The position numbers and the translations under genes are program-made. A stretch of 64,000 nucleotides of DNA from contig NW_003215453.1 of the NCBI RefSeq assembly GCF_000006405.1, forward strand, positions 156,631 through 220,630, in the 5' to 3' direction. Below the pieces are notes generated by a model that searched no databases, had not been told where the DNA came from, and was given only the letters and a program-made list of their open reading frames with translations. Source of the stretch: Perkinsus marinus ATCC 50983. Taxonomy: Eukaryota > Perkinsozoa > Perkinsida > Perkinsidae. Each line of letters begins with the position of its first letter. The first letter of the stretch is position 1. Of the stretch, positions 4,620-37,265 are shown piece after piece.

Positions 4620-5770
4620 CAAACTGTGAGACTGACGGAGATGACCGTGGTGGGACAGTCGAATTCTGATTGACCTATGGCATCGCCTTGTATCGGGCGA
4701 GGACAATTACTCGGATGTTAACTGTGTAGAAGTAGTACATAGAAGTGATTGATTCGAGGTTCGTCGACGATGAATGCAAATATCAGTCTTCATCTCAATA
4801 GATTATTTGCTTCGTCTCGTTGGTTTCCCGAGAGGCTCCACATCAACTATCTTCGTAGGCACGGCTCGTGTACGTTTCCAGATGGTCGCATTCGGATGGA
4901 GTAGCGTCCGATTGTGTATGTATACGGAGCGCAAAGGGCTGTTGAGTATCCATCCGTGAGGAACTTCCTAAACGTTGAAGTGTAACATCACTGATGGTGT
5001 AGTGTTAGAGTATTCGAAGAGTTGTTCTGCAGCTCGATTCAGGATGAGGAGTTCATTTCGTTCGAGGCATTAGTTGGTCGTCAGAGACAGACCTCATATC
5101 AGATCAGAGAGTTGCAAGCGGTGGAAGATCTGAGAGCTATGAAGCTGCTGATTGTCAAGTACTTGCTCGCGTAGGACTCGGGTTCGAATCCTGGCTGTCT
5201 CTCAAAGCATGGGAATGTGGCGGCCACACTGACAAGACGCTCATATACGTAGTTCATATAGTTACTTTGTAGTTTAGGAAATCTCTATGGTGACTGTTCA
5301 TCAAGTTGAATACACGACTGGGACTTGACGAACTTCGGATGCTCATTGAGGTGTTGGCAATCTTCATATTGTGGAGTCTAAAGTCTGGACGGCGAGCCTT
5401 ATTCGGTCAGCGGAGGGTTGTGCGGAATACCTCTTCTCGCGCAACTTGTTTATATTTCTGATATTCTCAGGGATATTGTAGGTGGCCGCGAAGTGACGAG
5501 TGGTATAGAAGCCTGTCCATGATTGGGTTATAGGTCTCATAGGGAAATGTGAATGATCGTTGCTGTTGCGATTTCGATTACTGATCGACACCGTATTCCT
5601 CGTTGGTACAGTCTGCGTTGGTTGCGCATCAGAAGGAGGTTACAATAATTTTGGGAGTGATTCGGTCATTGTTTTACCGTCTCAGGATGAGTATGGGTTT
5701 AGTGATCCGGTGAAGACGGGGTTGTTAACCTAGCGGATTAGGTGGGATCTGCCAGAGTCGGTTATCACTT
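4620..5770. other. No resolved gene; one probable terminal exon
   Basis: Mostly unassigned. The frame 5571-5733 (LRFRLLIDTVFLVGTVCVG... ending LLT then TAG at 5731-5733) has a hydrophobic stretch and could be a last exon; an open run upstream (about 5350-5480) also contains a hydrophobic FIFLIFSGIL. A T-arm-like sequence, ACTCGGGTTCGAATCCTGG, lies at about 5177-5196 and resembles the tRNA-derived introns elsewhere in the window. Confidence 0.3.
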
Positions 5771-5842
5771 GGCCCTGTGGCGCAACGGTAGCGCATCTGA
5801 CTCCAGATCAGAAGGTTGTCCGTTCGAATCGGGCCGGGGTCA
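5771..5842 (+). tRNA. tRNA-Trp (CCA)
   Basis: A full cloverleaf is readable: acceptor GGCCCTG pairs with CGGGGTC, the D-arm contains GCGCAACGGTAGCGC, the anticodon loop is CTCCAGA with anticodon CCA, and the T-arm is GTCCG-TTCGAAT-CGGGC. The discriminator is A. There is no intron and no encoded CCA tail. It stands alone between repeats, in contrast to the decayed tRNA-like sequences found inside introns. Confidence 0.93.
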
Positions 5843-6756
5843 TTATTTCGCGCATCAATCTGTATTTGCGTTCACCCTTGCAGACATTCCTTCGGTAACC
5901 TATGAACCTCATCGATAACCTTCGATACTTTTATGTGTCCTACAGATCATTACTTCAACTTCACATAAGTATGACTATCAGACATTCAATTCGATAATAA
6001 TCATTGAAAACCCGACCTTACAGTTGAGCGTCTTGGTCGAGGCTTGAGCCACTCGAAGAGATTCTTCTTCCCTGCTGTTGAATGACTCCTTATGCGTTGG
6101 ACCTATATGAAAATTCTGAGGAAATCTTGGGAGGTTTTGATTGGTTTCTGTACACTTTCACGCGAATTCTTGAGTAAACTCATGAGCTCAGCTGAGGAAA
6201 GAGAACATATATTCGAAGTTGCTGTCGAAGTTGGAAATTGTTGTGACGAGGTCGAGCTCGATATCACATAACTGTTTTGCTATTCGATAGATGCTTTCTT
6301 CCTTTATCACTACGCATGCCGTTGACATTAATGGTCTCCTCTCATGTGAAATGAATGCCTTGTGTTCTCTCAGCTCCTCATAGAGTAACCGTTGCGCAGA
6401 TTCGTTATCCTATGATTCGATTCATACTACTACTATTTCAGGTAACACGTGCGATATCATTATCGAGGTGAGGCTTCCCTTGTCAGTCCTATTCTTGAGG
6501 AAAGCCGTCAAAATTGACTTAACCCTTGGATGAATTTCGACGTCAAACAACTTAACTCCACCGGCTCGTTGAAATATGTTTTTCACTAGTGTTTTTCATA
6601 TCACGGGTGAAACTCCACTGCATATAACTTTTCATCATGCAGAAATATGCATGTTAGAGTTTGACCTGTGAAAAGGCGGCTGGTGCACGCTAGAATTCAC
6701 CATTAGAACTACGTGATGGTGCAGGTCATTTTTGAGCTTGCTTTATTTTTTTTCAG
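5843..6756. other. Repeat-rich spacer
   Basis: No gene seen. 6107-6218 is a diverged F2 copy (GAAAATTCTGAGGAAATC..., GAGCTCAGCTGAGGAAAG, ACATATATTCG). 6570-6618 is the right half of an F1 element ending GGGTGAAACTCCA. Confidence 0.55.
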
Positions 6757-8457
6757 TCCGGACGATATTACTTCTGGAATTATGAGGAGTGTTGTCTCCT
6801 CCTCGTCACCATCATCTGAGGACGTTAGCAGTGCGACTTTAGCCCAACTCGAAGCTAGAAGAGTGAATGAATTAATTAAAACTACTGAGGTTGGTGGTCA
6901 TTTACTCACTGACATCAGTTGTATTCAGTCAACTGAAGATATGCCGCAAGAATCTGTGAGCTCATTTTCGGTGGACGCTAAACATGATGTGAGTTCCCAG
7001 GAAGTGTTTTGGAAATATTGTGATTTCACTTCGATATTGCAGTTTAAAATTTGAGAGAAATTTGTTCCGTACATTCCGTTGTATTTGAGAGCGTTTCCCA
7101 GTGTTGGGGGGATGTGTTCGCTTTCTTCAGCTCAGCTCAAGCGTTTCCAAAGCTAATTATATGGGTTCACATAAAGATTCGGGTAGAATTTAAAAAAATT
7201 TCTCGAAATTTCGTCCGATTTTCCGTATTCACCCGTTTCACGTGGAGTGGCGTAAAACTCGGTGAAAAACGTGATATGTAGTAGTCGTGAAATATGTTTA
7301 TACTAGTGTTTTCCATATCACTAGGGCTGCCCGTGAAACTACAGTGTCACAGTTTCATCGTGTTGCGGCTACTTAATATTGCATTACTTGTGATAATGTG
7401 ATGTTCGGTCGTCGCAGATTGATGCAAGGGAAAGCAAAATGGTGGAATCCTTCCGCCGATTTGAAAAAGATGCTGAGAAAACAATAGAAGCGATCCTGTC
7501 ACTTGAGCCGACTGAAACCCCTGCTGTTGTTGAGGAAGAGAAGAGCAGTAGCAGCAGCAATTCTGTTGGGGACTTACCTCAGGTGAGCTCCTGTTATTGA
7601 TCGTATATGGTGTGAACCAAACCGTTATGTAAAGTAGTGTTTTCAACAACGCCTTCAATTTTTGAGTGATATCAAAATGATAACAATGCGAATCGGTTGA
7701 CACCAACTTTAGCGTTCTGTAATCTTGAATTGAAGAAAACCATCTCCAAAATCTAGATATGCATAACTGCTTGCTTCTACTCGGCGTGGGTATACCGCGA
7801 AAATTGAATGAGAAAATTTTCAAGTAATTATGGCAAGATAAATAAGTTATTTTCGGAAATTTTTTTGTGAAAACTGTGAGAAGAGTTGATAATGGTGAAT
7901 ATTATGAAACGAATTACAGCGTTGATAAAGTGATCTAGTGTGGAAAATATGCACATGGTCAACTACATGTGTTGGTGATAATATGGAAATTCTGAGGAAA
8001 TTTTGGGGAATAATTACTGGTTTCTGTACATTTCTACCGTAGTTCTATAACTATTGAGAAACCCCATGAGCTCAGCTGAGGAAAGCGAATATATGCTCTT
8101 CCAACACTGAAGAATCATGGTCGTTGAAATGTTCATTAAAAGCTTAAGCGATATCAAATTGTTGATTTTTTGAGGTCCAAGAGGAAAGCTCGAAAAAAGG
8201 GCGTCGGCCCAGTAGACGGTATATAACCTTTCTGCGGACACTTAATGATCATGATGATGAGATTGAGGAACGCAATGAGAAGGGCAGTCTTGTTACGGTG
8301 AGTGCCTTTGCTGTGCAAGAACGGAGGAAGCGTATTAGAGCAATATGATCATGTTTAGAGAGTTTATATGCAAGGTTTCAGGTTGATATGTGTAGTAGTT
8401 AGGCAGTTGTGACTGCCAAACGAAATTGGGTCTTTAGATTGCGCCTAGTGTAGCTTG

Positions 8458-8763: not shown

Positions 8764-9304
8764 GCCACCCAAACACACCCTATGTTGTTGTATAAGTCTA
8801 CCACAGATATGATGCATTTGCTTGCCATAATGCTTCATTGGAAAGAGCATGTGACTATAGCGCAACGCTGATGCAGAACCCGGGTTATCATCCCGTGTAT
8901 GCGACAACAGGCGGGGCTGCTCGACCGAGCTCAGGTGCATATTACAGACTATATTAGTCATTATTGATGCCGTTTAAATAAGCGCTCGCCCATGTGATCG
9001 ATATCATTATTTTGTTTTCTATCTGATGGTACATTTGGTGGCATTTGGTATTGCATCGATTTTGTTTGAAGTGGATTATACAGCCACTATGATAGTGCTC
9101 ATGTTTTCACTACATATCTTTTTTCAGCTAGCTGAGTTGTGTTATCAGTTGTGGTTGCCTGCTATGTGTACATTTTACCCGAGGAAAAACGTCGTCTTTT
9201 TGCATGCTCAACATCGTCTGGTGAGCTCGCGCGAAATGATGAAAGAATCGTGTGGGGAGGCGCCTTGTATCGAGTAGAAACGACACGAATGGAATCTGTA
9301 AAAC
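8764..9304. other. No resolved gene; possible exons
   Basis: An open run at about 8792-8949 (YDAFACHNASLERACDYSAT...) and another after TTTTTTCAG at 9128 look exon-like, but phases and start could not be fixed. The motif AAGCGCTCGCCCATGTGATC at 8980-8999 belongs to a short dispersed motif discussed in the findings. Confidence 0.3.
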
Positions 9305-9305
9305 T

Positions 9306-9366
9306 GCAGTGGATAGGATGTCACGCTGTGACCGTGACAACCCCGGTTCAAATCCGGGTATCGACT
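9306..9366 (+). pseudogene. 5'-truncated tRNA-His (GTG)
   Basis: Matches the intact tRNA-His (see 37194-37265) from its D-loop onward: AGTGGATAGGATGTCACG, anticodon loop with GTG, then AACCCCGGTTCAAATCC and the acceptor end GGGTATCGAC. The first 13 nt of the tRNA (acceptor 5' strand and start of the D-arm) are replaced by unrelated sequence. An oligo-T follows. Confidence 0.75.
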
Positions 9367-14555: not shown

Positions 14556-14627
14556 GGGCTGAGCCGAGAATCGAACCCGGGACCTCGCGCACCCGAAGCG
14601 CGAATCATACCACTAGACCACACAGCC
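14556..14627 (-). tRNA. tRNA-Pro (CGG)
   Basis: Read on the minus strand: acceptor GGCTGTG with CTCAGCC (one T-T mismatch), D-arm GGTCTAGTGGTATGATT, anticodon stem CGCGC / GCGCG with loop TTCGGGT (anticodon CGG), and T-arm CCGGG-TTCGATT-CTCGG. There is no intron. Confidence 0.92.
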
Positions 14628-15396: not shown

Positions 15397-17660
15397 TTAC
15401 TCGGCGGTAGCTTTCACAGGTGTCGAAATCGATCGCGCGATCGATTCGGCCAAGGTAGGATTGTTAAGATAGACTTCCTCAAAGACTCTATCAGCAACCC
15501 TGAGGGCCTCTTTGGTGCCTTCACACGTAACCCTCCATTCGTGAGGGATTTGCTCAGCGCCGTATCTAATACAACAACAGCTATCAAGAGCATCATCCTC
15601 GAGGAACGACCGGAATTGAAAATACGGCTGTTAAAAGTCGAGAAATGTTAGTTTCTGTTGTCCTCTCATGCCACCTATGAAATACTTCTCAATTATGAAG
15701 TGGGAAATTTCAGAGTTTTCGAAGAACTAGTTTCAACAAATTCCAAAAAAGTGAGAATATTTATTTACTCGTGCGCTACCAACTCACGTTGCTCCTGCTA
15801 TCGCGCCAGCAAGGCATGCATTGGCTCGAGTATCACCACCACAGCTGATGGCCCAGCTCAGAATCAAATGCATTTCTGAAAAAAATACATCAACCAAGAT
15901 TCGAACCAGCGACCTATACGACGATGGCCGACAATCTTACCGTTTTGACCATACGTCGGACTGGCATTTTCAGTCTCGTCATAATACTGTTCAGCAAAGT
16001 CTATCTTGTTGCTACTGTTGAGAATATCAGGACAGAGCATTGCTGGCGTCAAAGTCGCTCCACCCAAATCAGCATCCCTGAAAAGAATATTCAATTTCGT
16101 GGCGCGTGACAAAAACAAACAGCCATCAGCTATTCGAGATGAGTCCCCCATATCGTCTCATAAGATTCTTACTCATCAGCGCCGTGAACTTCCTCTCCCA
16201 CCAAGCCTTGCTTAATAGCAAATGCAACGATCGGCAACGCAGTACTAGCCATGGAATCATTTCCAATCTGAACGCACAGCGAAGATTTTGGAAATGTCGC
16301 GCGCCACGAAATTATGTCCTTACCCTGGCGGCGAGCCTCCGCTGTACATCCATTGAAACCTCACTGTAGTTGACAGGTGTTGCCAGTTGGAGTGCAGATA
16401 TCGTCCTGATGCAAAGATACACAATAGGCCCGAACGTGAACACTACGGAAGAACCCTAAGGGAAAAGATTGACTTTATTTTTCGATTTTTTGTATTTTTT
16501 GAAAAAAAGGAATAAAAACTACCACACGAAAATAACCAAGCCGATGAAACTCACCGAGAATCTTTGATGATGCTCAAATCGCAAACTCCCGTCCTCACGG
16601 CATTCCGCGCGATATCTACCAAACACTTAGCACGATCCTTAGCGACATCATGTGTAGGGACGGCTCCAGCCATCTGAAAACAACAACATGATTCCTATAC
16701 ATATTCACACTAACAGAAAACTCATGAAACCGCGACGCTGAATATTGAAAATAGATATGCGATTCCGCAGAATAATCACAATATCTTTCCCAAAGATATC
16801 CACTGCGCACAGCGAAGATTCCACTCACTTGCTCAAAAACAGTTTCATATTCACCATCCGGGAACAATGCCGCGGGTAAGTCCTTATCATAACAGTGTTG
16901 CCGCGCAGTGTGTTCGATTTAGGAACTTCACCATGCAGGACCTGAGATGATGAAATCGATCACGTGATCGATTATGTTAGCATCTTACAGAACCAATCCC
17001 AGCACCCCATTTAAGGTGATTCATGTCGGGATCGTTAATCAAATCTACAAAACTTTGTCGGAGGTGCGCACTGTCTCCACCGTTGAGAACGTTCTTCGTC
17101 GCATTCAGCATCTAAGGTTCAACACTGTAAGATACAAAATAGGCCCAAAACAATACCATATATCCATTACAGGATTGTCTGAACAACCACTGACCTCCAG
17201 AGAGCTTTGCCAATGAGGGCGCCATGGCTCTATAGGAAAGCGATTCGGCAACTTCAGCCATCGGCAATGCGTTGACGCCGATATCACAGAACCTTACAGA
17301 GAACAACAATTTCCAGATCTGTCACTATATTTACACTCTGTCACATAATTACCCAAAGAAACCAACGCGTTGACCCCAATATCACAAAAAACGGCTATTC
17401 CCAGATCTGTCACTATATTCACACACTGTCACTCAAATACAAAGTAGGAACCATCAGTAACGAGTTGACGCTGATATCACAGAACCTCACAGAAAACGAC
17501 TATTTCCAGATCTGTCACTATATTTACACTCTGTCACTTACCTAGTGCCGAAGCAATCACCAACAACAGCGCCCAAAAGCATTCCTCTAATTCTCGACTG
17601 TAGGACGCTCAAATTGGCGCTCACCACAGGAGAAAGACTCTTCCCAGTTGCTGCTGACAT
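15397..17660 (-). CDS. ADP-ribosylglycohydrolase (ARH / J1-crystallin family)
   Basis: The family removes ADP-ribose from proteins or related substrates using a two-metal site. Exons on the minus strand: 17542-17660 (Met start; RIRGMLLGAVVGDCFG, the N-terminal family motif), 17195-17292 (tentative), 16989-17111 (ends LKWGAGIGS), 16829-16931, 16555-16673 (MAGAVPTHDVAKD, matching the conserved TH region), 16324-16405, 16173-16267 (GNDSMASTALP), 15941-16077, about 15785-15875 (CGGDTRANACLAGAIAGA, the C-terminal GGDT motif; the usual second acidic residue after Thr is Arg here) and 15397-15627 (YGAEQIPHEW, ending at TAA). The region 16829-16931 needs a change of frame or a different acceptor, since GNTVMIRTYP and AALFPDGEYETV are in different frames. 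The first-exon DDT metal motif is not evident. Intron 15876-15940 is tRNA-like; intron 1 carries a triplicated segment. Confidence 0.8.
15876..15940 (-). other. 65-nt tRNA-derived intron of the ADP-ribosylglycohydrolase gene
   Basis: On the minus strand it begins GTAAGATTG, includes TAGGTCGCTGGTTCGAATCT (tRNA variable region plus T-arm), and ends in TTTTTTTCAG. The exons on both sides join in phase in a conserved domain, so the splice sites are well supported. Confidence 0.8.
17293..17541 (-). repeat. Intron with three tandem ~95-nt copies of the intron/exon-2 border
   Basis: The segment GTGACAGAGTGTAAATATAG TGACAGATCTGG... followed by CTGTGATATCnGCGTCAAC occurs three times; the last copy runs into the exon 2 start at 17292. 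The donor of exon 1 is itself the start of the first copy. The duplications create decoy 3' splice sites. Confidence 0.75.
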
Positions 17661-20720: not shown

Positions 20721-23146
20721 ATGAAAGGTCAGAATTTGCTTATCAAGCCAAACCTCCTAAATCCTCAAGCCGCTGCTCAGGGTGAGGATATCTTGAGGTT
20801 GACTTCGTAAGATACAAATGAGGTTCGTTTCAGGCAACGGGCAGTCAACTGGTGAGACCAAGTTTGAAGGTCCTCCGATGGTGAATGAGCCTGTCCAGAC
20901 GGACTGCTTCCGTGGCCGGGCTTTTCAGAGTGATTCCATGGGTGGAAATTATGCAAAAATGGTAACTCCCTTTCCCATGTTGGACGTCTTCATTTCTGTA
21001 TCAGATGAAGGAGAAATACGGAGTTAACGTGTCGGTAGCGCCTCTCAGCGGCAACGGAGCTGTTGTGAACTGCCGTGCTCCATCTAAGGACCAAGCTGTG
21101 GCGGCCTCGAAAGTCATCTCCAAGGTAAGTGAGGGGGTTGGCAGTGTGGTTGGTGATTTGAAGGAATTATGGTATGCAGATTCTTGCTGGGTTCCACGTG
21201 GAACTCATTGAAACGACTGATGAAGTTCTGGACAAGCTCTTTGATACTACTATGAATCCTGACAAGACCATTGAAGAGGTAAATAATATTTCGATTAATT
21301 CTCTGTTATCATCACTCACCCTCCCTCCAGATCTATATGCTCGGTCGTGTGTCTCAACTGAAGAACAAGGAGCCTGGTACTACTATTGCTAGGTCCAATC
21401 CCGACAACTTTGAGAACTCGCAGGTATAGTGACGTGGGAGAACTCGCGAGGTGGAGGTCTTCTTGTGTAGGTTGGAATCATCGTGGAAGAGTCCGTCAGA
21501 AAAGAGCTGCCTCGTATTCGGGGAGATGTGATGGACATTATACGGAAGTGCTCTTACACGACGGAGACGGTTAAGGTTCCTAGGTAAGGAATTGATGATG
21601 ATGATGGTGTGGTATGGTGAGAGTTGATGTAGGGCGCATACGAAGACTTGGGGTGAGACTACTACGACGAGTTTGAATGATGCTCTCAACGGCGAAGCTA
21701 TGGTCTTTTTCCGAAGGTGAGTTGGCGTCGGGTGATTTGGTTTGATGGTGGAAGTTGTGGTTGTCTACCTAGAGGTATGCGGTTCAATTCCTAGGGATGT
21801 CTTTTTTTCTTGTTAGAGCCCAGACTAAGGATGATGAGAGCTATTTGGACTTGTGGGGGAGCCCTGAGGGGCGCGAGAGGGCTAAGGAACTTGTAAGAAA
21901 TTGTTTTGATTGTGCATTCCATCTTTGATACAGAGATAGTAAGCTGTGAGTTTACTATTCACTTGTTATTTACCAGAGTGCTGCTGTTGAACGTTTAGTG
22001 CGCTGTATCGTTGATCGGACTTTTACATTGTTGATTCGTATGCTTTCGGATCTCTATTACGGGGTGGATTAGTTCGGCTCCCTCTGGTGGGCGTATTTCA
22101 ACTGAATATGGTCTGTTCTGTGATCAGCTGAAGCAGTTCTATGAGGCAGTGAGCGTATCGGTTCCCGAGGAAGCCGTCCAACCGATGCTGCAGGACAGAT
22201 GCAAGGTCCTGCAAGATATCCAGGTTAGTCTAGTGGTTAGTTGTTTGGTTCTCCATCCTGGAGGTCGTGAGTTCGATCCTCATCTCTCTATTTTTTCAGA
22301 GAGATGCCGCTGTATCGCTGTATTACTCTAAGCCTGACTCGGCCGTCTTCATATACGGACTGAAAAAGAACAAGGATAAGGCTGCTGCTGATTTCAACAA
22401 GTAATGGCGATGAGCACTTCGGAGGGTTCTGAAGGTATCATTTGTAGTTTTTTGGATAACCTACACAAGCAGCTCGCGAAATACACAATAAAGCAGATTG
22501 AATTGCGATCTGACGAGATGGGCATTCTGATTGGACCTAAGGGCCGAAACATCAGGTGGGTAATCGAAAGGTCCCCGGATCTATCCGTGGCGAGTGGATT
22601 TTATACTCTTGTTGTCGTCAGGCGTATCACGGAAGAGTCCCTTTGTCATGACATTCGTGTTGGTGAGGATCAGATTGTAAGTTTGGGAAGTCTCATACCG
22701 TAACTCTTCGAATTCGAGATGATTCCCTTCGTTGCGATGGACATTGTATGGTTATCGAAAATTAGTCGGTTCGTGTTTGTGTAGAATTTTCGATGTGAGT
22801 GGAGAAGTGGACTCATTCCATCATCAGGTCACTATCACGGGATTGCCCGCGGCGGTTGAGAAGGCTGTTACTATGATCGAGGAGGATCTAAGTAGGTTAT
22901 ATTTTGTCTCTAGAAAGTTATATGTTTACTAAGTACTCTATATGTTAATTTCCGTTTTATACCCTATCTTTATGAAATTGTTGTGATGCAATATTAACAT
23001 TAAAAATGCCAAGCGATTAAATTCGCTTTTGGGGCCGATTTTGGTAGTAGTTGGAATTTGGTGATCTTAGATGCTAGAAAGGATGTTGTCACTGTACAGT
23101 CGCCTGGAAATGAGAAGGAGAACGAGCCAACTCCAGGTGAGAATTA

Positions 23147-23187
<41 letters not shown>

Positions 23188-23444
23188 ATTGCAGTGTATG
23201 ATGCTTTTGTTGTTGTAGAAGCGAAGTCGTTCTTGTTCGCTCGTCGTGAAGGGGGATGGGGAGAGAAAGTAAGAATTGTAGGGTGCCGGGTTTGAACCTG
23301 AGATCGTTGGTTTGTGAGCAGGCCCCTGATGTGGCTAAGGAAGAGCCAGTGGATTTGAACTCGACCGATCAGTTCCCGCCACTTGGAGCTCATCCTTCTG
23401 GAAAGCCGAAGAAGGCGAAGTTCCGTGGGACTAAAAAGCATTAA
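20721..23444 (+). CDS. KH-domain RNA-binding protein (vigilin-like)
   Basis: Sixteen exons join in phase: 20721-20781, 20834-20961, 21005-21124, 21180-21278, 21331-21423, 21471-21593, 21817-21892, 21977-22063, 22128-22223, 22300-22400, 22448-22555, 22622-22676, 22828-22891, 23071-23136, 23219-23268 and 23322-23444 (TAA 23442-23444). The protein is about 480 residues. A clear KH domain spans exons 11-13: DEMGILIGPKGRNIRRITEE (GPKG is the GxxG loop) through DIRVGEDQIVTITGLPAAVEKA. Two weaker KH-like regions are around YGVNVSVAPLSGNGAVVN (exon 3) and exons 6-7. The C-terminus is basic and ends FPPLGAHPSGKPKKAKFRG. Such proteins bind mRNA or tRNA on ribosomes. At least four introns contain tRNA-like sequence. 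The start is the first ATG in frame before a 52-nt intron; no upstream exon was found. Confidence 0.8.
21752..21803 (+). other. tRNA-like fragment within intron 6 of the KH gene
   Basis: CTAGAGGTATGCGGTTCAAT TCCTAGGG resembles a tRNA variable region and T-arm, followed by a run of seven T. It lies in the intron 21594-21816, whose acceptor is CTTGTTAG. Confidence 0.5.
22224..22299 (+). other. 76-nt intron that is almost a whole tRNA
   Basis: The intron reads GTTAGTCTAGTGGTTAG (tRNA D-arm, A-box-like), an anticodon-arm-like part, AGGTCGTGAGTTCGATCCTC (T-arm, B-box-like), then TTTTTTCAG. The length equals a tRNA. Splicing is needed to join KVLQDIQ to RDAAVSLYYSK in phase. The 5' splice site coincides with the start of the D-arm; the 5' acceptor strand is missing. 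Confidence 0.85.
23147..23187. repeat. (TAG)n microsatellite in an intron
   Basis: About thirteen TAG triplets in intron 23137-23218 of the KH gene. All three sense frames would include stops or Val runs, so the intron call is consistent. Confidence 0.9.
23269..23321 (+). other. 53-nt intron with an antisense tRNA T-arm
   Basis: GTAAGAATTGTAGGGTGCCG GGTTTGAACCTGAGATCGTT GG...GAGCAG. The GGTTTGAACC is the complement of a T-arm, so here the tRNA-derived part is in reverse orientation. Confidence 0.65.
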
Positions 23445-23455
23445 GGTGATATATA

Positions 23456-23536
23456 GTGTCTGAATAGTCTAGTGGTTAGGTTGTTGGCCTCTGATGCGGT
23501 CGGTTGTGGGTTCGATCCGAGGATGCTTCATTTCAG
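23456..23536 (+). other. tRNA-like element ending in TTTCAG just after the KH stop codon
   Basis: Twelve bases past the KH stop: GTGTCTGAATAGTCTAGTGG TTAGG, a middle arm, GGTTGTGGGTTCGATCCGAG, then TTCATTTCAG. It has a GT at one end and a good acceptor at the other, so it could be spliced as a 3'-UTR intron. The anticodon stem does not pair cleanly, so it is not called a functional tRNA. Confidence 0.65.
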
Positions 23537-24056
23537 GCACTGTGATTGTGGATTGTTTCGAGTACTGTCGTAGCTTGAGAAGATCTGCAGGGGTGCGAAC
23601 TCGGTCCCTTTACTTTATCCCAACCTTTCCTTTTCTCTGTTGAGGTTGAGTTTGATGTGCTTCAGATAGGATGGCATTCAGGGACTTGGAATGATACCGA
23701 GGGGTGCTCATCTCGAATGTTTCACATGTGTTCATATGTAGCACGTGAATGCGATCATATTAGGAAAATTTTCCCACAAATGTTATTTCTCTAAGCTGGG
23801 CGTGAATCTCTACAGATCTTGTTGCGGGTTCTCGTGGATGCCTTTGGACAGATCTGTTTGGTGAATTTTGGGTCTGTCATGAAATTTCCTGGCTGAGTTT
23901 TTTTGGCGGTCGTCGCGATAGGAAAGAACAAGGCCAACATGTTGGTGACTATGACCTTGGAATTGATGAAGGAGTGATTATTCATTTACGTGGATGGTAG
24001 TACTGGCTGGGCACCGTCTGTGGTTAATTGGAGTTATCCATTATAATAGGGAGTAA

Positions 24057-24190
24057 TGGAGTTTCACAACCCGTTTCACGTGAAGTGGCGTAAAACTCGG
24101 TGAAAAACGCGATATTATTCGCGGTGAAATGCAGTAGTCGTGAAATATATTTTTCACTAGTGTTTTTCATATCACTAGGGTGAAACTCCA
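24057..24190 (+). repeat. F1 inverted-repeat element, reference copy
   Basis: A complete copy, 134 bp: TGGAGTTTCACAACCCG, CGTGAAGTGGCGTAAAACTC, GGTGAAAAACGCGATATTAT, TCGCGGTGAAATGCAGTAGT, CGTGAAATATATTTTTCACT, AGTGTTTTTCATATCACTAG, GGTGAAACTCCA. The ends TGGAGTTTCAC and GTGAAACTCCA are exact inverted repeats of 11 bp, and shorter internal inverted repeats (TTTTTCACTAGTG; ATTATTCGCGG) would fold it. No open frame, so a non-autonomous MITE-like element. About 25 copies or pieces exist in the window, most in introns and in both orientations. Confidence 0.9.
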
Positions 24191-24271
24191 CTACACACTA
24201 CTAGGTCCTCGCGACGAAGGGGCGGAGTTCGCTTAGTCGACGTCTATTGATTCAATCAATGAATTTGACAT

Positions 24272-24300
24272 AGGTCCCGGGTTCGATCCGCGGGTTGGAC
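24272..24300 (+). pseudogene. Isolated tRNA T-arm and acceptor fragment
   Basis: AGGTCCCGGGTTCGATCCGC GGGTTGGAC, the 3' half of a tRNA without the rest. It is nearly identical in its core to the tRNA-derived introns at 27513 and 44945. Confidence 0.6.
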
Positions 24301-24610
24301 AGTTTTCTGTCAAAAAATGTTTTCGTGCATATCTCTTTGAGCTGTTGGCGAAATCGAATTTCTCGATTTTTTGCGGAAACCTCGGCACATAGAGGAGTCG
24401 TGTGATCCATCTGATGGCATCCTACGCTTTGTAGTTGAGCCAGAATAATTCTGCACGCACGCACAATGCGAAAGAGCCTGTTGTTGCGGTATACGATCCG
24501 CCCGCTTCGTTTGCTCCGCAATTTTATATATACATCCTTTTCTTAGTATACTAATATCGCTGTGTTTCCACTGTTTATAATAAGTACTCGTTTTGGATGG
24601 AATCGCGATA

Positions 24611-24797
24611 GCTTATATGAATGCAGTTTCCGATGCGTATGATGGCGTCAATTTTGTAGCCGTGACCCGGCTCCATATGGAAGTGGTTTCCGGTGCGTGT
24701 GATGGCGTCAATATTGTAGCCGTGACACGGCTCCATATGGAAGTAGTTTCCGGTGCGTGTGATGGCGTCAATATTGTAGCCGTGACACGGCTCCATC
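24611..24797. repeat. 60-bp tandem repeat, three copies
   Basis: Unit: CCGGTGCGTGTGATGGCGTC AATATTGTAGCCGTGACACG GCTCCATATGGAAGTAGTTT. The period is exactly 60, so both strands stay open and would encode a 20-residue repeat; on the minus strand it reads MEPCHGYNIDAITRTGNYFH. Whether it is translated is unknown. Confidence 0.85.
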
Positions 24798-24892
24798 GAA
24801 GTTGCGCGATATGTAATCACTGGTTTTACTCGTTTACTGGGGCTTTCCCTTGTTGTGTTATGGAATTTTATAATTATATCGCTAAGGCTAAA

Positions 24893-25013
24893 TTGTAGAA
24901 GTCTACGTACAAATTCGGGTAGGAGTGTACAGAAACCAATAAGACTTTCCTCAACTTTCAGAGATGTTACAAATACGTGTAGTGGACTGCGTGTATATTT
25001 TTCCACACCGGGT
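24893..25013 (-). repeat. F2 element copy
   Basis: TTGTAGAAGTCTACGTACAA, GGAGTGTACAGAAACCAATA, AAATACGTGTAGTGGACTGC and TTTTTCCACACC. It is the reverse orientation of the 7936 copy and lacks the palindrome end. Confidence 0.65.
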
Positions 25014-25756
25014 TTTCTACTGAGAGGCACTAGGAAATTACGTCACTTCACTGGAGATGGGTCCGTAGATGTGAGTCTGAGCGCTCGGTCTCGGATCGAT
25101 CCGAATTTACATCGTAGTTGGAATCAGTAATGTGGTAGTGGTGGAGTAGGGGACAGGGATGAGTGGAGCGATACTTTTTGAGGTGGAGCGTTTTTGTTGG
25201 TGTGCATGCGTGCTGTCGTCTTGGATTTCAAGTTGCATGTGGTTAATTGATGAGAATTTGGGTAGACAAGATAGCTTTATACGGTGACCCACAGTCTGTG
25301 AGAAGAAGTGTGGGGAGGAATTTAACTCTTGAGAGGCTTTGGCCGTTCGAGTTGGTATATGTTGGTGACGACGCGGAGTAGATGAGGAAGTGGAGCTTGC
25401 ACGCATGCACAAGGGCGCCGCCGCCGCCTGTTGGTTGTTATGACCTTCAAGAATGATCCAGCAATCGAGGTTCATATGTTGGATCTTCAGGATAGGTCTA
25501 TTGAGGTTATATGCAGTGTGGGAATATATGGTTGATTATACCGATGGGGAATTTTTATGATTTTTTGGGGGAAAATTGTATTGATCGGATTTAGATTTTC
25601 GTATTTTTGGTTTAGAAGTTTGTGCTGTGGTGTTTCATGGATGTGAACGTTTTAACGGCGTGTTTGACAGGACTTTTTTACCCATGTCTGCATATCCATA
25701 TGAATCGATCGTGCCTAATTATTCTAATTTAGCCAACGAAGACGGCTCTGTGGGGA

Positions 25757-25801
25757 GGTGAGATTTGGACCTAATTTGCATCTTGTAAGGTCAACCTTTA
25801 G
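25757..25801 (+). other. F3-family intron (45 nt)
   Basis: GTGAGATTTGGACCTAATTT GCATCTTGTAAGGTCAACCT TTAG. It shares the core GGACCTnnTTTGnATCTT...CAACCTT with introns at 27371 and 31767 and with the 35076 array. The upstream exon end (GTGGGGAG) is tentative. Confidence 0.6.
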
Positions 25802-27706
25802 ATATTCTTCCGAAGTTTCGCGTGCCGGTGGAATTGAAGTTCCAAGTCAGCCGGGTCGAAGTTCCCTATCGGAAGATCCTCACTACTTGTTAGAAGCGGA
25901 TCGAATGGCGCCGCGGATGTTGACCGAGGTGCGGGTAGGTCACCCACCATTCTGCGCAAGTTCGATCCCTGGTGGGCGCTTTTTTCCCTAATATTCGAAA
26001 TAATGCATGCCGCGATGATGAATGTGATTTTCTTCTTAGGGTGTGGACGAACCTCAATGGGTAGGGGAACAGTCACAAGATTTAGCGTATAACTTTTTAA
26101 GGTTGGTTACTCTAGGTAGTGAGTTCTTAATTTTGTGGCGCGCGCGGTAATTTCCTATCCTCTTCAGCTACTACCGAAGGTCGGCTGGATGCTACTCCTC
26201 CAATGGTAGGATGACGTGTCTGGCGGTTGTCATTGTTGGGTTCTTCAGGACGTCAGACCTGGCGCCGCTCCGCTCTTGTGTGACCCGATTTTGAGTAAGT
26301 TTTGCAGTGTTGGAGGAGTATATGTTCGCTTTTCTAAGCTGAGCAGACAGAAATTAATGAGAATTTCCTCTCAGAATTCTCGTATTGTTATCAACACGTG
26401 TAGTTGACCATGTGCATATCTTCCTCCCCACCCGATTCGTTCGCTCAGGAGCTCCACCGCCAATACGACGAGACTTAACCTCCTCAGAGCTTGGCAGCCG
26501 ACCGAATTCGGAAGGATCAAGAGAAGTGATAGGAGGCCTCTGTGATGATGGTGTATGATGATGGAATTCAGATCGCTACTGTGGCACCACCGGGATGTCA
26601 TAGAACTCTAACACTTGGCATGAGGGCACAAGCGGTGGATTTGGATGATCTTGCAAACTTGCGGGAAGATCGGACGACGTTGATGATGAAGAGGGTGCCT
26701 CGAAAGTAGGAAACATGGTGTAGTGGTTAGAGGTCGTGGTTGGTAATCGGAAGGTCGTGGGTTCTATCCCTGTAAAGAATCTTTTTAAGTATTAATGATC
26801 GAATACTTCAAGTATTGAGTTATCGAATTCTATAACCGAAGTCGTTCTCAAGTAGGTCGTCAGTCTTGCTTCTGAAATTATGAAGGATTTAGATATTCAA
26901 ACTTCAACGCCCAGTTTATGCCCGATTATCGTTTCGATATTATGTTGTATTTCTATTCATTCAGATATTCATTGGCGCTTCTTCGCGAGGAAATTGCATC
27001 TTTCCCAGGCCTCAGTGACAGCTACGATTTGCTGTAATAAAAATGCCCGCCCCTGGATTCGATCCGGGGACCTTTCGCATGACAGGTATCTACCAGCCGA
27101 TGTGTCCAAGAATGCGAATAGAGGCTATGCATTTATCAATTTGAAATCTATTAGTCACGTATACATCTTTGCAAGCATGCTACAGGTGAGTAGCAACTGT
27201 CACACCTGGGGCGCGCGCTTTTTCGTCGCATTCCCGCGGAATTCGCGTGATTCTCGTGCGCTTTCAGAACCATGAGTGGCGACATTACAATGCTTCGCAC
27301 AGAACTTGCCAACTTCGCTTTTCTCATGTGCAGGGACGAGAAGATACTCTGCAGCATCTAACTCAAGAACGTAAGATGGTCATTTTCGGACCTGTTTTGA
27401 ATCTTTGTCGGGGAACCTAAAAGATATCTTTGATTTTAGGTCATCCTTTATATACGCTTCAGCAACGGAGGAGACGTCAGAACTACGGAGCGGGGGCTGA
27501 ACTGGTCTTATTGTAAGAGGTCCCGGGTTCGATCCTCGGTCGCGGCATTTTTCCTTTCATTTAAGACCAGTCGGTTCACAAGACGAATGGGCGGCAGATG
27601 AATACCAATTGCCGAACGAGGGTAAGCGGAAAAATTAATGAGAATTTTTTCCCGATTTTTTTTCTGTTTTTCAGACTTTTTTCAGCCCAGTTACAGTACT
27701 ATGTAG
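25802..27706 (+). CDS. Mei2-like RNA-binding protein (C-terminal RRM)
   Basis: Mei2-like proteins bind RNA through a special C-terminal RRM and act in meiosis or development. The domain is read across several exons: ...DRTTLMMKRVPRK (to 26705), YSLALLREEIASFPGLSDSY (26965-27033), LYLPADVSKNANRGYAFINL (27086-27185), then HEWRHYNASHRTCQLRFSHV and QGREDTLQHL (27268-27370), matching the order TTLMIRNIP, LLEEI, FYLP, GYAFINF and AxIQG of the family. Further exons are 27440-27512, 27566-27621 and 27675-27706 (TAG 27704-27706). Upstream exons 25802-25928, 26040-26101 and pieces near 26168-26295 and 26530-26640 are less sure, and the true start is not identified. Introns are 43-259 nt; four are tRNA-like and two or more are F3-type. 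An F2 copy fills the intron near 26296-26530. Confidence 0.75.
25929..26039 (+). other. tRNA-derived intron of the Mei2-like gene
   Basis: Starts GTGCGGGTAGGTCACCCACC, includes CAAGTTCGATCCCTGGTGGG (T-arm plus acceptor end) and CGCTTTTTTCCC (oligo-T after the tRNA 3' end), and ends TTTTCTTCTTAG. Confidence 0.7.
26706..26964 (+). other. 259-nt intron carrying a near-complete tRNA-like sequence
   Basis: The donor GTAGGAAACATG runs straight into GGTGTAGTGGTTAGAGG (D-arm), CGTGGTTGGTAATCGG (anticodon-like arm with loop TTGGTAA) and AAGGTCGTGGGTTCTATCCC (T-arm), then TTTTT. The acceptor is TTCATTCAG. It splits the conserved NIP-K-Y region of the RRM, so its boundaries are firm. Confidence 0.75.
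27034..27085 (+). other. 52-nt intron made of an antisense tRNA fragment
   Basis: GTAATAAAAATGCCCGCCCC TGGATTCGATCCGGGGACCT TTCGCATGACAG. Read backwards it is a tRNA 3' half: anticodon-stem end ATGCGAAAGG, T-arm CCCCGG-ATCGAAT-CCAGGGG and GGGCA, followed by the oligo-T (AAAAA on this strand). Removing it joins SDSYDL to LYLPADV in frame inside a conserved RRM, which makes this the cleanest case in the window. Confidence 0.88.
27371..27439 (+). other. F3-family intron (69 nt)
   Basis: GTAAGATGGTCATTTTCGGA CCTGTTTTGAATCTTTGTCG GGGAACCTAAAAGATATCTT TGATTTTAG. The core CCTGTTTTGAATCTT is shared exactly with the intron 31767-31812 of the SANT gene. Confidence 0.8.
27513..27565 (+). other. 53-nt tRNA-3'-half intron
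   Basis: GTAAGAGGTCCCGGGTTCGA TCCTCGGTCGCGGCATTTTT CCTTTCATTTAAG. The donor is the variable-region side of a tRNA; the oligo-T after GGCA becomes the pyrimidine tract. Confidence 0.8.
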
Positions 27707-28436
27707 TGGCTTTCGCGCAGAAAGCGTTTTCAAGTCAATTTCATCTACTGAGGCCCTTTCCGTGGCGCTCCTTTACGGGTTGTTGTGTTATTAGTTGTAT
27801 ATCAATTATGGAATTTATATGTTACAATAGGAAAAACTGCGAATGAATATACATGAGCTCATCCAGAGTGATGGTAGAGTGAGGGTAGAAAAGGAGAACT
27901 CGATTGAGAGTTAGCAGTGAACTGAGGCGCTTTCCGTGGCGCCCTTTTACACGTTGTTGCGGTATTAGTTTTATCAATGAGGAATTCATAGATACATAAA
28001 ATTAGTAGTGGAGTTTCTCAGCTGTCATATGAAAATCATATTTCATAAGTTATCGATTAAAAATAAAATGATATTCATTTACGTTAGTTGTATTATCGGT
28101 CGCAGAAATATCCACTTCTCAAAACTGTGTGGAGTATGACGCCACTTCGCGGTGAAACTATAATGGAGTTTCACCCTAGTGATATGAAAAACACTAGTGA
28201 AAAATATATTTCACGACTACTGCACATCACCGCGAATAATATCGCGTTTTTCACAGAGTTTTACGACGCCACTTCACGTAAAACTTGTTTTTAGGTAGAT
28301 CGGATATTTCGATATTATAAACTAAATTTTTCAGCTACTCTTAGGGTCGGAAAAAAAATCTTAATTTCAAGTTTTTGTAGATGTGAATTGACACAAATGT
28401 GGTATTAAAATTCTCAACAGTTTTGGGGTATTATAA
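27707..28436. other. Intergenic with F1 pieces and a duplicated GGCGC motif
   Basis: Two related sentences, TGAGGCCCTTTCCGTGGCGC (27749-27768) and TGAGGCGCTTTCCGTGGCGC (27922-27941), each followed by CnTTTACnnGTTGTTG, show a short direct duplication about 173 bp apart. No gene is seen. Confidence 0.5.
28164..28285 (-). repeat. F1 element, right end missing
   Basis: TGGAGTTTCACCCTAGTGAT through CACTTCACGTAAAAC. A further fragment with ACGCCACTTCGCGGTGAAAC lies just before it at about 28139-28159. Confidence 0.8.
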
Positions 28437-34400: not shown

Positions 34401-36481
34401 GTAAAAAAATATTGAAATTGTGAGGAAATTATCATTGGTTTTCGTATACTTTTACACGAAATTTTGCAAGGATTTTCGTAATGCAGTGAGAAAAGTTACA
34501 AGCTCAGTTGAGAAAACTAAATATATATTCCCACACTGTCTACTGGTGACTATGTGGAGATTATGAAGTAATTTCTTGGGAAATTCTCATTGTAAACTCC
34601 TCTCATTTTTTATACATGATTCATATGTAAACTCCTATAATGTAGCTTTGGAAACTCCTGAGCTCAGCTGAGGAAAGCGAACATATATTTCTACTCCAAC
34701 ACTGTGGTCGACTACATGTGTTGGAAAATATTTTGGGAAATTCTTATTGGTTTTTTTTGTACACTTCTACCCTAATTCGTATGTAAACTCCTGAGCTCAG
34801 CTGAGGAAAGCGAACATATATTCCTACTCCAACACTGTATAGGAAACTCCTGAGCTCAGTAGCTGAGGAAAGCGATTACATATATTCCTACTCCAACACT
34901 GTATAGGAAACTCCTGAGCTCAGTAGCTGAGGAAAGCGATTACATATATTCCTACTCCAACACTGGCTGTGTTCAGATATAAAAATCTGTTGGGATGCAA
35001 GACTATGTTGAGTGGATCTTTGAGAAGCCAAACGTGCAAACACATTGCTAGGAAGGTGAGCGGAGGAGCGCATACGGACCTCATTTGAATCTTACGATCT
35101 TGAACCTTGGATATCTTTGCGCACTATGAATGTTTTTTGCGATTTGTATATGTGGACCTCATTTGAATTTTACGATCTTGAACCTTGGATATCTTTGCGC
35201 ACTATGAATGTTTTTCTGCGATTTGTATATGTGGACCTCATTTGAATTTTACGATCTTGAACCTTGGATATCTTTGCGCACTATGAATGTTTTTCTGCGA
35301 TTTATATATGTGGACCTCATTTGAATCTCACGGTCTTGAACCTTGGATATCTTTGCGCACTATGAATGTTTTTCTGCGATTTGTATATGTGGACATCATT
35401 TGAATCTTATGATCTTGAACCTTGGATATCTTTGCGCACTATGAATGTTTTTCTGCGATTTGTATATGTGGACCTCATTTGAATCTTATGATCTTGAACC
35501 TTGGATATCTCTTCATTGTGTCTTTCTTTATCAGGAGATCAAACGTACTATGTATTATTTATCAAAAGCTGCAGATAAGGTCCCTCATCTCTGTCCAAGA
35601 GCTCCTCCAGTGGGCGCGCATGGGCGACCGGTGAGAATGTTTGAATATTTTAAATCCACCCAATTGTGGTATTGTCAGAGTCGCTATTATACGCACGAAT
35701 TCCTGCGCTGTCTGGAACAGAACTCGCTGCGTTATAATCCGCATAGGCGTCGTGCTATTGTGAATACGGAAGATGATAATTCACTGAGAGGTGGGGAAGG
35801 GTTTTTTTCATGGTTTGTGGTTCCGTATTAGGAAAGCGACTATATTATAAGTGTGGTAAAATATGCGCATGGTCGCTTACATGTGTTGGGAAAATTTTCA
35901 TTGATTTCTTTACACTTCTGCCCGGAATTACACATGAAAATCCTAGACTCAGGCGAAAAGAATGAACATATATCCCGTCGCGGAAGAAATGCGTGGCTCA
36001 TTATTGATCGTTTTTTTTGTGGTGACTGGGGATGGTGTTGGTGATAATTAATTGTTTATTTCGATCTCTGATACTATTGAGAATGTTGTCATTGTATCCT
36101 TCCTTCGGGAATGTAGTGAAGGTATTTATAATGGAGTTGCACCCGTGATGTGAAAAACGCATTTCACTTTTCACATCGCGAATATCACGTTTTTCACGTG
36201 GAGTATTACACCACTTCGCGTAAAAAAGGTGGAGCTCCGATGTATCAGTTCATTATTCGAATTATGTTTTTTCTCGAACAGGAGGGACGTAAACGTAGTT
36301 GTTTTGTATCTTGTGTAGGCAAGTTGGAGGATATCCTCGCAACAGCTGTGGCGTCGCATTGTCTGGAATGGGCGGATCTGGAAGCAGTAGCACAGAGAAG
36401 ATACCGACCGTCGCCGTTTAAAGGGGGTGAGCATCTGCCACAGATGAGTTCATCAACAACCCCTAGTGGCAATCCGGTTTA
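28437..36481 (+). CDS. SANT-domain nuclear protein (NCoR/CoREST/MTA-type), repeat-inflated
   Basis: The SANT region is LTQPTDADVKKFLERL, VSFPKDFRRMAAGSDRL, STGQMIEIYFRYK (34228-34358 plus 34977-35055), matching the pattern F..A...FgKDF..IA..L..KT..Q.I.fYyryK of chromatin SANT domains. Exons in phase: 28437-28534 (Met start, MPSSSKEKWTLRAASEFSTE), 29304-29353, 29529-29611, 30000-30075, 30128-30233, 31109-31222, 31274-31373, 31614-31766, 31813-31977, 32311-32450, 32954-33021, 33374-33558, 33661 to about 33750, 34228-34358, 34977-35055, 35535-35790 and 36276-36481 (TAG). Acidic, Ser-rich and helical segments dominate. The donor after 33661 and the junction 35790/36276 do not fit phase simply (GTGAGA at 35631 is an alternative donor). 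Introns are packed with F1, F2 and F3 elements. Confidence 0.7.
28553..28822 (-). repeat. Two F1 copies in intron 1 of the SANT gene
   Basis: 28553-28669 (TGGAGTTTCACCC...GGTGAAACTCCA, reverse orientation) and 28702-28822 (TGGAGTTTCACCCGTGTAAA ... AGTGAAACTCCA, more diverged), only 32 bp apart. Confidence 0.85.
28822..28944 (-). repeat. F2 copy abutting an F1 end
   Basis: Starts AGTGTTGGAATATATGTTCG directly at the last bases of the preceding F1 copy, continues CTCAGCTGAGCTCGGGAGTT and ends CACCAACACATTTTTCCCAC. Confidence 0.75.
29160..29291 (-). repeat. F1 copy ending just before the exon 2 acceptor
   Basis: TGGAGTTTCACGGGCGGCCC to GGTCGTGAAACTCCA; only 12 nt separate its end from the exon (ATTAATATTTCAG). 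Confidence 0.85.
29774..29882 (+). repeat. F1 copy in an intron of the SANT gene
   Basis: TTGGTTCACAACCCGTTTTA to GGTGAAACTCCCA; its left end has lost the GAG of the terminal repeat. Confidence 0.8.
30562..30808 (+). repeat. Composite of two F1 copies with a shared spacer
   Basis: A 119-bp F1 copy (30562-30680), a ~59-bp spacer (TTATTAATATTTTATATAGC ... ATACTAGTAGTATAT), and a short F1 copy (30740-30808). The same arrangement and nearly the same spacer occur at 60650-60870. Confidence 0.85.
31020..31094 (+). repeat. Short F1 copy, internal deletion
   Basis: TGGAGTTTCACAACCCGTTT TACGATATGCAGTAGTCG... to GGGTATAACTCCA. The segment between the GAAGTGGCG box and ATATGCAG is deleted. Confidence 0.8.
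31400..31595 (-). repeat. F2 sequence in intron 7 of the SANT gene
   Basis: A forward end piece (ATATGCACATGGTCAAGTAC) is followed by a reverse copy (ATATATGTTCGCTTTCCTCA, GAGCTCAGGAGTTTCC, GTACAGAAACCAACAA). Confidence 0.75.
31767..31812 (+). other. F3-family intron (46 nt)
   Basis: GTGCCGTTTTTGGGCCTGTT TTGAATCTTAGCATCTCAAC CTTAAG. Removal joins LEPAAKE to YVQAYGVWSK in frame; without it the frame stops at TAG. Confidence 0.8.
31978..32310 (+). other. Intron bounded by two antisense tRNA T-arm fragments
   Basis: Near the donor: GTAAAATTGCCGCCACTGGA AATCGAACCTGTGCGGGG. Near the acceptor: CTCACCGAGAATCGAACCTG TGCGGGAAGAG...TTTCGCAG. The shared ATCGAACCTGTGCGGG means the same antisense tRNA piece sits at both ends, with F2-like and low-complexity AAATTTCAGAAA repeats in between. 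Confidence 0.7.
33226..33338 (-). repeat. F1 copy in intron 11 of the SANT gene
   Basis: TGGAGTTTCACGGGCGGCTC to GGGTTGTGAAAGTCA. It sits 35 bp before the acceptor of exon 12. Confidence 0.8.
33559..33660 (+). other. 102-nt intron consisting of an F2 element
   Basis: From the donor GTAAGTGGGCGAAAATATGC through ATATGTGTTGGTGGTGATGG, TATACTTTTATAATTAGTGA to GGAAATTGCTGAG, which is used as the 3' splice site. In full-length F2 copies the same position reads CTCCTGAG before CTCAGCTGAGG. The next exon (LWKYIPPAQRDGEVEMERYS) is in phase. Confidence 0.65.
34007..34152 (+). repeat. F1 copy, full length
   Basis: TGGAGTTTCACGACCCGTTT to GGTGGTGAAGCTCCA, with an insertion (CATTCTA) in the GAAGTGGC box. 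It lies between two copies of a duplicated splice-acceptor region (33893-33935 and 34209-34255). Confidence 0.85.
34359..34395 (+). other. Donor region of an intron made of a tRNA 3' half
   Basis: GTGAGCGGGAGGTCGTGGAT TCGATCCCGGCACGCG followed by TTTTT. Directly follows the SANT-coding exon. Confidence 0.7.
34450..34966. repeat. F2-derived tandem array in an intron
   Basis: After two fuller F2 copies, a ~60-bp tail unit (TATAGGAAACTCCTGAGCTC AGnTGAGGAAAGCGAnnACAT ATATTCCTACTCCAACACTG) is repeated four to five times up to 34966, just before the acceptor of the next exon. Confidence 0.85.
35076..35514 (+). repeat. F3-unit tandem array, six copies of 78-79 bp
   Basis: Unit begins GGACCTCATTTGAATCTTAC GATCTTGAACCTTGGATATC and ends TTCTGCGATTTGTATATGT. 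Starts are at 35076, 35154, 35233, 35312, 35391 and 35469. It fills the intron 35056-35534; a single unit is what the F3 introns elsewhere resemble. Confidence 0.92.
35850..35975 (+). repeat. F2 copy in the last intron of the SANT gene
   Basis: GTGTGGTAAAATATGCGCAT, TTACATGTGTTGGGAAAATT, TTTACACTTCTGCCCGG and GAATGAACATATATCCCG. Confidence 0.65.
36132..36239 (-). repeat. F1 copy in the last intron of the SANT gene
   Basis: TGGAGTTGCACCCGTGATGT to AAAAAAGGTGGAGCTCCGA, diverged in both ends. Confidence 0.7.
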
Positions 36482-37193: not shown

Positions 37194-37265
37194 AGTCGCT
37201 ACCCGGATTTGAACCGGGGTTGTCACGGCCACAACGTGACGTCCTAACCACTAGACGATAGCGAC
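37194..37265 (-). tRNA. tRNA-His (GTG)
   Basis: Minus strand: acceptor GTCGCTA / TAGCGAC, D-arm CGTCTAGTGGTTAGGACG, anticodon stem-loop GTCAC-GTTGTGG-CCGTGAC region with anticodon GTG, and T-arm CCCCGG-TTCAAAT-CCGGG. Seven-bp acceptor stem intact. No encoded G(-1) was assumed. Confidence 0.93.

Follow-up and report, generated by a model that had tools for sequence, protein, structure and literature searches.

The origin of new introns is an old open question, and the sources known so far include introners that resemble transposons, duplication and, rarely, the insertion of a SINE. tRNA pseudogenes and 5'-truncated retroposed small RNAs consist of degenerate tRNA sequence whose 3' end is fixed while the 5' end varies. 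The members of an introner family are copies of a single element, in some families with and in others without TIRs or TSDs, and most introners fit an origin by DNA transposition (PMC9860276), while a subset of the non-canonical introns of Amoebophrya has inverted and direct repeats (according to the passages of PMC7789003 that deal with them). The sections of PMC2394776 on SINE-derived introns describe a SINE-made intron in the rice catalase A gene and four Alu-made, alternative introns in human 3'UTRs, and name the AG that follows a poly-T stretch as the 3' splice site selected most often in SINEs. Perkinsus introns are described as GT/AG introns, mostly shorter than 100 bp (intron passages of PMC3101222).

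The tRNA-like introns described here for Perkinsus marinus, a unicellular shellfish parasite, resemble the introners of PMC9860276 (a survey across diverse eukaryotes) and of PMC7789003 (Amoebophrya) in that many introns of a genome come from a recognisable source and the intron is coextensive with the element, but differ from them in that introners have one element per family, whereas here apparently many tRNAs are involved and nothing common was seen beyond the tRNA. Similarly, they share with the SINE-derived introns of PMC2394776, in the sections mentioned, that a short retroelement in an exon turns into an intron, but those comprise a single coding case (rice) and four alternative ones in 3'UTRs (human), whereas here there is a genome-wide class of tRNA pieces with no SINE body seen. 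Decay and fixed 3' and variable 5' ends link them to tRNA pseudogenes and retroposed small RNAs, but in Perkinsus such remnants make up entire introns and contribute the splice signals. Retroelement-made introns are a known idea, and a genome-wide class made from tRNA pieces was not found in our literature searches: the main text of PMC9860276 contains neither 'Perkinsus' nor 'tRNA' nor 'SINE', and no paper was found joining 'tRNA-derived' with 'introner', which does not prove absence from print.

A tRNA-like intron in a KH-domain gene

The window (64,000 nucleotides of P. marinus contig NW_003215453.1, C251:156631-220630, to which unlabelled coordinates refer) contains a gene for a KH-domain protein at 20721..23444 on the forward strand, with 15 introns and 478 aa; genome-wide searches covered the host assembly of 54.5 Mb in 347 contigs. 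The spliced model runs from the start at 20721 to the stop codon TAA at 23442-23444, and 14 of the 15 introns are confirmed by the orthologues from P. chesapeaki (P0001) and P. olseni (P0002), the relatives found in the database (86% and 89% identity in the alignment), the exception being 23137-23218. An exon placed inside 21893-22127 in the first model is absent from both orthologues, so that this region is a single intron, and three additional introns that the gene finder set at the stop codon or beyond it found no confirmation. The gene is single-copy in the genome, and no empty allele was found for the intron at 22224..22299.

This intron is 76 nt long, in phase 0 and on the forward strand, and has the ends GT...CAG (GTTAG...TTTTTTCAG). 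When it is kept in the transcript model the frame shifts and stop codons appear, and the junction obtained by its removal (KVLQDIQ/RDAAVSLYY) aligns with no gap to both orthologues, which upholds the claim of the first-pass annotation that its removal keeps the reading frame. With GT...AG ends and exact exon joining, it behaves in sequence as a U2-type intron.

The same annotation had called this intron essentially a tRNA, of which the general layout stands. The D-arm or A-box-like block TAGTCTAGTGGTTA (22226..22239) has the same letters as positions 8-21 of tRNA-Val(UAC), and is followed by a T-arm with five standard pairs and the B-box GTTCGATCC (22267..22283, GTGAG-TTCGATC-CTCAT), a seven-base acceptor-like stretch, and six T and CAG (22291..22299), where the terminator-like T-run of the tRNA would serve as polypyrimidine tract and 3' splice site. 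A covariance model built from 17 native tRNAs (R1), with which 284 kb was searched and for which E-values are rough, matched the intron over its full length (model positions 1-72) at 22.1 bits and E 4.9e-4, making it the third-ranked of 30 R1 hits outside tRNA genes. Its closest relative among 15 native tRNAs is tRNA-Val(UAC), aligned in sense over positions 8-61 with a score of 34, where 200 dinucleotide shuffles reached at most 27. What does not stand is completeness: ARAGORN called no tRNA at 22224-22299, the D and anticodon arms have broken pairs in the alignments, the first acceptor bases are exonic, and the general Rfam tRNA model gives only 12.1 bits, below the 29-bit gathering score for a tRNA gene, so that the intron is a decayed tRNA without its first acceptor bases.

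A search of the 54 Mb genome with the DNA of this intron returned only the intron itself. The exact combination of TAGTGGTTAG and GTTCGATCC, spaced 20-45 apart, occurs at two places in the 54 Mb, both in the window: in this intron and at 23458..23525, on the same strand and 1.24 kb apart, and the two may have a common local origin. The second block, which shares 15 nt of the D-arm with the intron, is tRNA-like (R1 17.0 bits, E 0.02), as had been proposed for the stretch 23456-23536, but this stretch lies beyond the KH stop codon, and its removal is therefore not required by any reading frame. The CAG/CAG at the ends of the 22224-22299 intron is uninformative as a target-site duplication, as CAG is also splice consensus.

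Two further tRNA-like introns of the KH gene were overlooked in the first reading. The 100-nt intron at 21717..21816 (forward strand) holds the T-arm motif GGTTCAATTCC and a T-run, and its junction is confirmed gap-free by both orthologues; R1 matched 21731-21802 at 10.2 bits (E 2.9), and its alignment score of 22 against the native tRNAs is not above the shuffles, which reach 25. The 53-nt intron at 23269..23321 (forward strand) contains an antisense T-arm (GGGTTTGAACCT; antisense score 25), and its junction is gap-free against P0001, with 11/19 residues alike around it in that one orthologue.

Together with these three, the last of which has one relative, tRNA-like introns were located at 12 homology-supported junctions, which were picked for their tRNA look and therefore give no rate: 6364-6439 and 6905-7015 in the Sec13 gene (L004), 5475-5525, 7445-7500 and 7586-7680 in the Naa15 gene (L018), 638-736 (L072) and 684-740 (L074) in DHX15 genes, 701-752 in a PRPP synthetase gene (L087), and 2950-2999 in a PKA gene (L013). 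For KH, Sec13 and Naa15 combined, 38/46 predicted junctions passed the homology check, and a Sec13 encoded here matches a partial P. marinus record at 94% identity. The DHX15 copies on contig C52 (L072/L089) and contig C69 (L073/L090) are 94-98% identical, and the C69 copy carries about 400 additional nt inside one of its introns.

Frequency of tRNA-like introns

The genome was sampled with 25 stretches of 10 kb outside the window, of which about 50 kb reads N, and introns in sample and window were predicted with a self-trained gene finder, on which splice sites beyond the 12 homology-backed positions rest. As the training was partly on the KH gene, its recovery of 15/15 KH introns is not independent. 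A strict T-arm scan (five pairs, G53-C61) gave four matches in the 250-kb sample and eight in the window, with three tRNA genes in each; these low numbers indicate that intact T-arms are rare, and a B-box motif and alignment to native tRNAs were used instead.

Of the 400 predicted introns that were usable (median length 57 nt), 21 contain the B-box motif, whereas 200 shuffled sets average 1.8 and never exceed 7; outside the window the count is 15/343. Per kb, the motif is found 0.61 times in introns, 0.21 times in intergenic DNA (31 matches in 146 kb outside genes) and 0.10 times in exons. Alignment to 15 native tRNAs (part of the full set), with a score of at least 24 and the motif not required, recovered 19/316 introns with the window included versus 36/3160 shuffled introns, 60/2987 intergenic windows (overlapping) and 24/2000 exon windows. 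With the window left out and introns limited to 40-150 nt, this became 15/272 versus 20/1405 non-overlapping intergenic tiles, after tiles scoring at least 60 had been left out (Fisher p 1.4e-4).

The test set by the first-pass annotation, whether tRNA-model hits are more frequent in introns than in intergenic DNA, favours its proposal with the motif (p 2.7e-4) and the alignment, but is borderline with the covariance model, for which introns account for 10 hits, intergenic DNA for 18 and exons for 2 (assigned by majority label; p 0.058). The tRNA-like introns are several times over-represented in comparison with shuffles, exons and intergenic DNA. Extrapolated to the whole genome, a rate of 5% would equal several thousand introns, and with about 5 in 100 predicted introns of the sample being tRNA-like, the source would be one that is universal to all cells and has its splice signals partly built in. 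The first-pass annotation had spoken of introns from whole tRNAs, and a tRNA-derived class does extend beyond the KH gene, but many members retain no more than the 3' portion of a tRNA.

A search of the whole genome for a T-arm followed by a T-run and TTTCAG returned 27 rows (26 places), against 0 rows for the reversed control of the pattern. We fetched 20 of the 26 places; two more had already been sampled, and four copies of a five-member repeat were left out. Predicted sense introns ending at the CAG of the pattern make up 15/20 fetched sites (with L072/L073 and L083/L084 as duplicate pairs), whereas T-run + TTTCAG sites in general are at predicted 3' splice sites in 6/24 cases (Fisher p 0.002). 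The predicted 5' splice sites in L071, L082, L083 and L084 adjoin the T-arm and are doubtful. The remaining five sites comprise three without a predicted gene (including one copy of the repeat family), one antisense to an exon, and one tRNA gene (L077), a class II gene which was also the sole tRNA found by Rfam in the 20 fetched sites.

Anatomy and origin of the introns

The tRNA-like introns occur in either orientation, and many keep only the T-arm, the 3' strand of the acceptor and often a T-run. The description as a whole tRNA suits 22224-22299 and L079 and, by eye, 7586-7680 of L018 and 4331-4428 of L014, while tRNA-like introns of 49-57 nt contain hardly anything besides T-arm, acceptor and T-run. 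Sense introns (n=13, including the doubtful 23506-23573, which lies past the KH stop codon) range from 49 to 123 nt with a median of 68, versus a median of 57 for introns without the motif (n=379). Their discriminator base is 8-22 nt from the 3' splice site in 8/13, and the 5' splice site falls anywhere between 12 bases ahead of the tRNA and tRNA position 40, with one doubtful case at 49. Of the 10 antisense introns, 7 have their 5' splice site within -1 to 12 nt of the tRNA 3' end, two introns with a palindromic T-arm being counted in both lists. The PRPP synthetase intron starts at anticodon base 35 of tRNA-Thr(CGU), with 14/14 letters (GTAAGCAGAAGGTC, also a good 5' splice site) and an alignment score of 36 against at most 23 for shuffles. 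Native tRNA genes have TTT directly 3' in 14/39.

We consider it reasonably probable that tRNA-derived sequences repeatedly became spliceosomal introns in this Perkinsus, with 22224-22299 as an unusually complete example. Copies of tRNA transcripts, often 5'-truncated as in target-primed reverse transcription, would have landed in exons, where a GT within the tRNA (GTAAG in the anticodon loop of tRNA-Thr; GT just before U8 in 22224-22299) could be taken up as 5' splice site, while the T-run behind the tRNA would provide the polypyrimidine tract and a CAG close by would act as 3' splice site. For a copy inserted the other way round, the 5' splice site would come from the complement of the tRNA's 3' end. 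Target-primed reverse transcription would produce copies that share their 3' end and differ at the 5' end, and such a route predicts that the 3' end of the tRNA is fixed and its 5' end variable, and that orientation sets which splice site the tRNA supplies. The first-pass annotation had seen in such introns a route of intron gain, and gain remains the best reading of the tRNA-like sites, albeit one reached by inference, as no empty allele was found. A broader claim, that Perkinsus recruits its own tRNA transcripts (mainly 3' parts from the anticodon region) as introns in their thousands, with the B-box then selected at the DNA level, appears unlikely to hold in full.

The paralogues bear on age. 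The PRPP synthetase paralogue at C251:296690-296930 shares the tRNA-like beginning of the intron (32/42 letters), after which it has extra sequence, and as both copies have this beginning, the intron predates the duplication and has changed in length since. In the PKA copy on contig C217 the corresponding site holds a 42-nt intron, again with that antisense T-arm, so that both close pairs (PRPP synthetase and PKA) carry the intron and as empty sites caught no gain. Three distant kinases match across the PKA site in an unbroken stretch (C138, as well as C6 and C243, each of which has an in-frame TGA), which fits gain, and also loss.

It is possible, although we would not expect it, that tRNA pieces entered pre-existing introns, and that the older intron sequence was later lost while the tRNA remnants stayed. 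This would agree with the motif matches outside genes, with the change in size around the tRNA core of the PRPP synthetase paralogue, with the somewhat greater length of sense tRNA-like introns, and with an intact tRNA-Ala(CGC) gene that lies antisense within a 236-nt predicted intron of the PP2A B56 gene (L006 4907-5142). Two observations speak against it: in the introns of 49-57 nt the room left beside T-arm, acceptor and T-run is less than a minimal intron, and in 7/10 antisense cases the 5' splice site is close to the tRNA 3' end.

Selection could also have kept the T-arm or B-box whatever its origin, for example as a TFIIIC-type DNA binding site, which we regard as improbable. The PKA pair on contigs C137 and C217 hints at such a constraint on the T-arm: third codon positions agree in 26/53 and the neighbouring intron pair has no similarity (p 0.75), but TCGAACC-ACG is preserved at matching positions of the tRNA-like pair (p 0.008). 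This is a single pair, however, for which gene conversion could give the same result, and because introns were chosen by their T-arm motif its conservation looks inflated. If the constraint on the B-box were true, Pol III promoter elements would be linked with intron evolution.

That one mobile family with a tRNA-like part, be it an introner or a SINE, made all these introns seems very unlikely. Five near-identical rows of the genome-wide pattern search with GTTCGAACC...TTTCAG, as well as the related blocks at 24242-24301 and at 4043-4109 of L013, would fit such a family, but 22224-22299 lacks the near-identical copies expected of an introner family. When 11 introns were singly compared with 15 native tRNAs, their best matches were Val, Thr, Pro, Ala and Arg tRNAs, with Val, Thr and Pro among those that beat the shuffles, and matches on several different tRNAs do not have the appearance of one copied introner family; by eye, nothing common beyond tRNA features and no shared non-tRNA (SINE) body was seen in these 11. 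Chance, with B-box-like words arising in introns of such base composition, would account for short matches that are individually weak (6/11 exceeded all 200 shuffles and 5/11 did not), but is hardly credible given the excess of motif-bearing introns over shuffled sets, the full-length R1 match of the KH intron and the zero rows of the reversed control.

Other tRNA-like blocks and tRNA genes

ARAGORN and R1 searches identified three functional-looking tRNA genes in the window, used as reference: tRNA-Trp (5771..5842, forward strand), tRNA-Pro (14556..14627, reverse strand) and tRNA-His (37194..37265, reverse strand). At 9294-9366 there is a truncated tRNA-His pseudogene with about 90% similarity to the tRNA-His gene, from which it is separated by 28 kb. 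Elsewhere in the genome, clusters of tRNA-Cys genes are found at G000:C282:9745-14547 and C9:245-1435, some of the genes 373 nt apart and one on C9 read as tRNA-Tyr.

On the reverse strand, the gene finder predicted a 65-nt intron at 15876..15940 that ends in a T-arm and TTTTTTTCAG, overlaps an R1 match (15886-15956, 13.5 bits, E 0.26) and is also among the genome-wide pattern rows. With regard to 26706-26964, where similar introns had been reported, there is a weak tRNA-like match on the forward strand at 26716..26773 (R1 13.7 bits, E 0.24), but the gene finder places this region outside genes and an intron is unconfirmed. R1 matches cluster within 22200-27600 (22223, 23458, 24242, 26716, 27044 on the minus strand, and 27518).

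The block at 24242-24301, which has its relative at 4043-4109 of L013, comes after one copy of a dispersed repeat of about 100 nt with TTTTTCACTAGTGTTTTTCATATCAC; copies of this repeat are found at 24100, 34059, 44561, 45084, 60674 and 62396, and inverted at 28161 and 29154. Dispersed copies like 24242-24301 may be SINEs. Three consecutive open frames at 50813-52867 have, by eye, likeness to a non-LTR reverse transcriptase and RNase H, and a tandem repeat with a 79-nt unit is located at 35054-35527.
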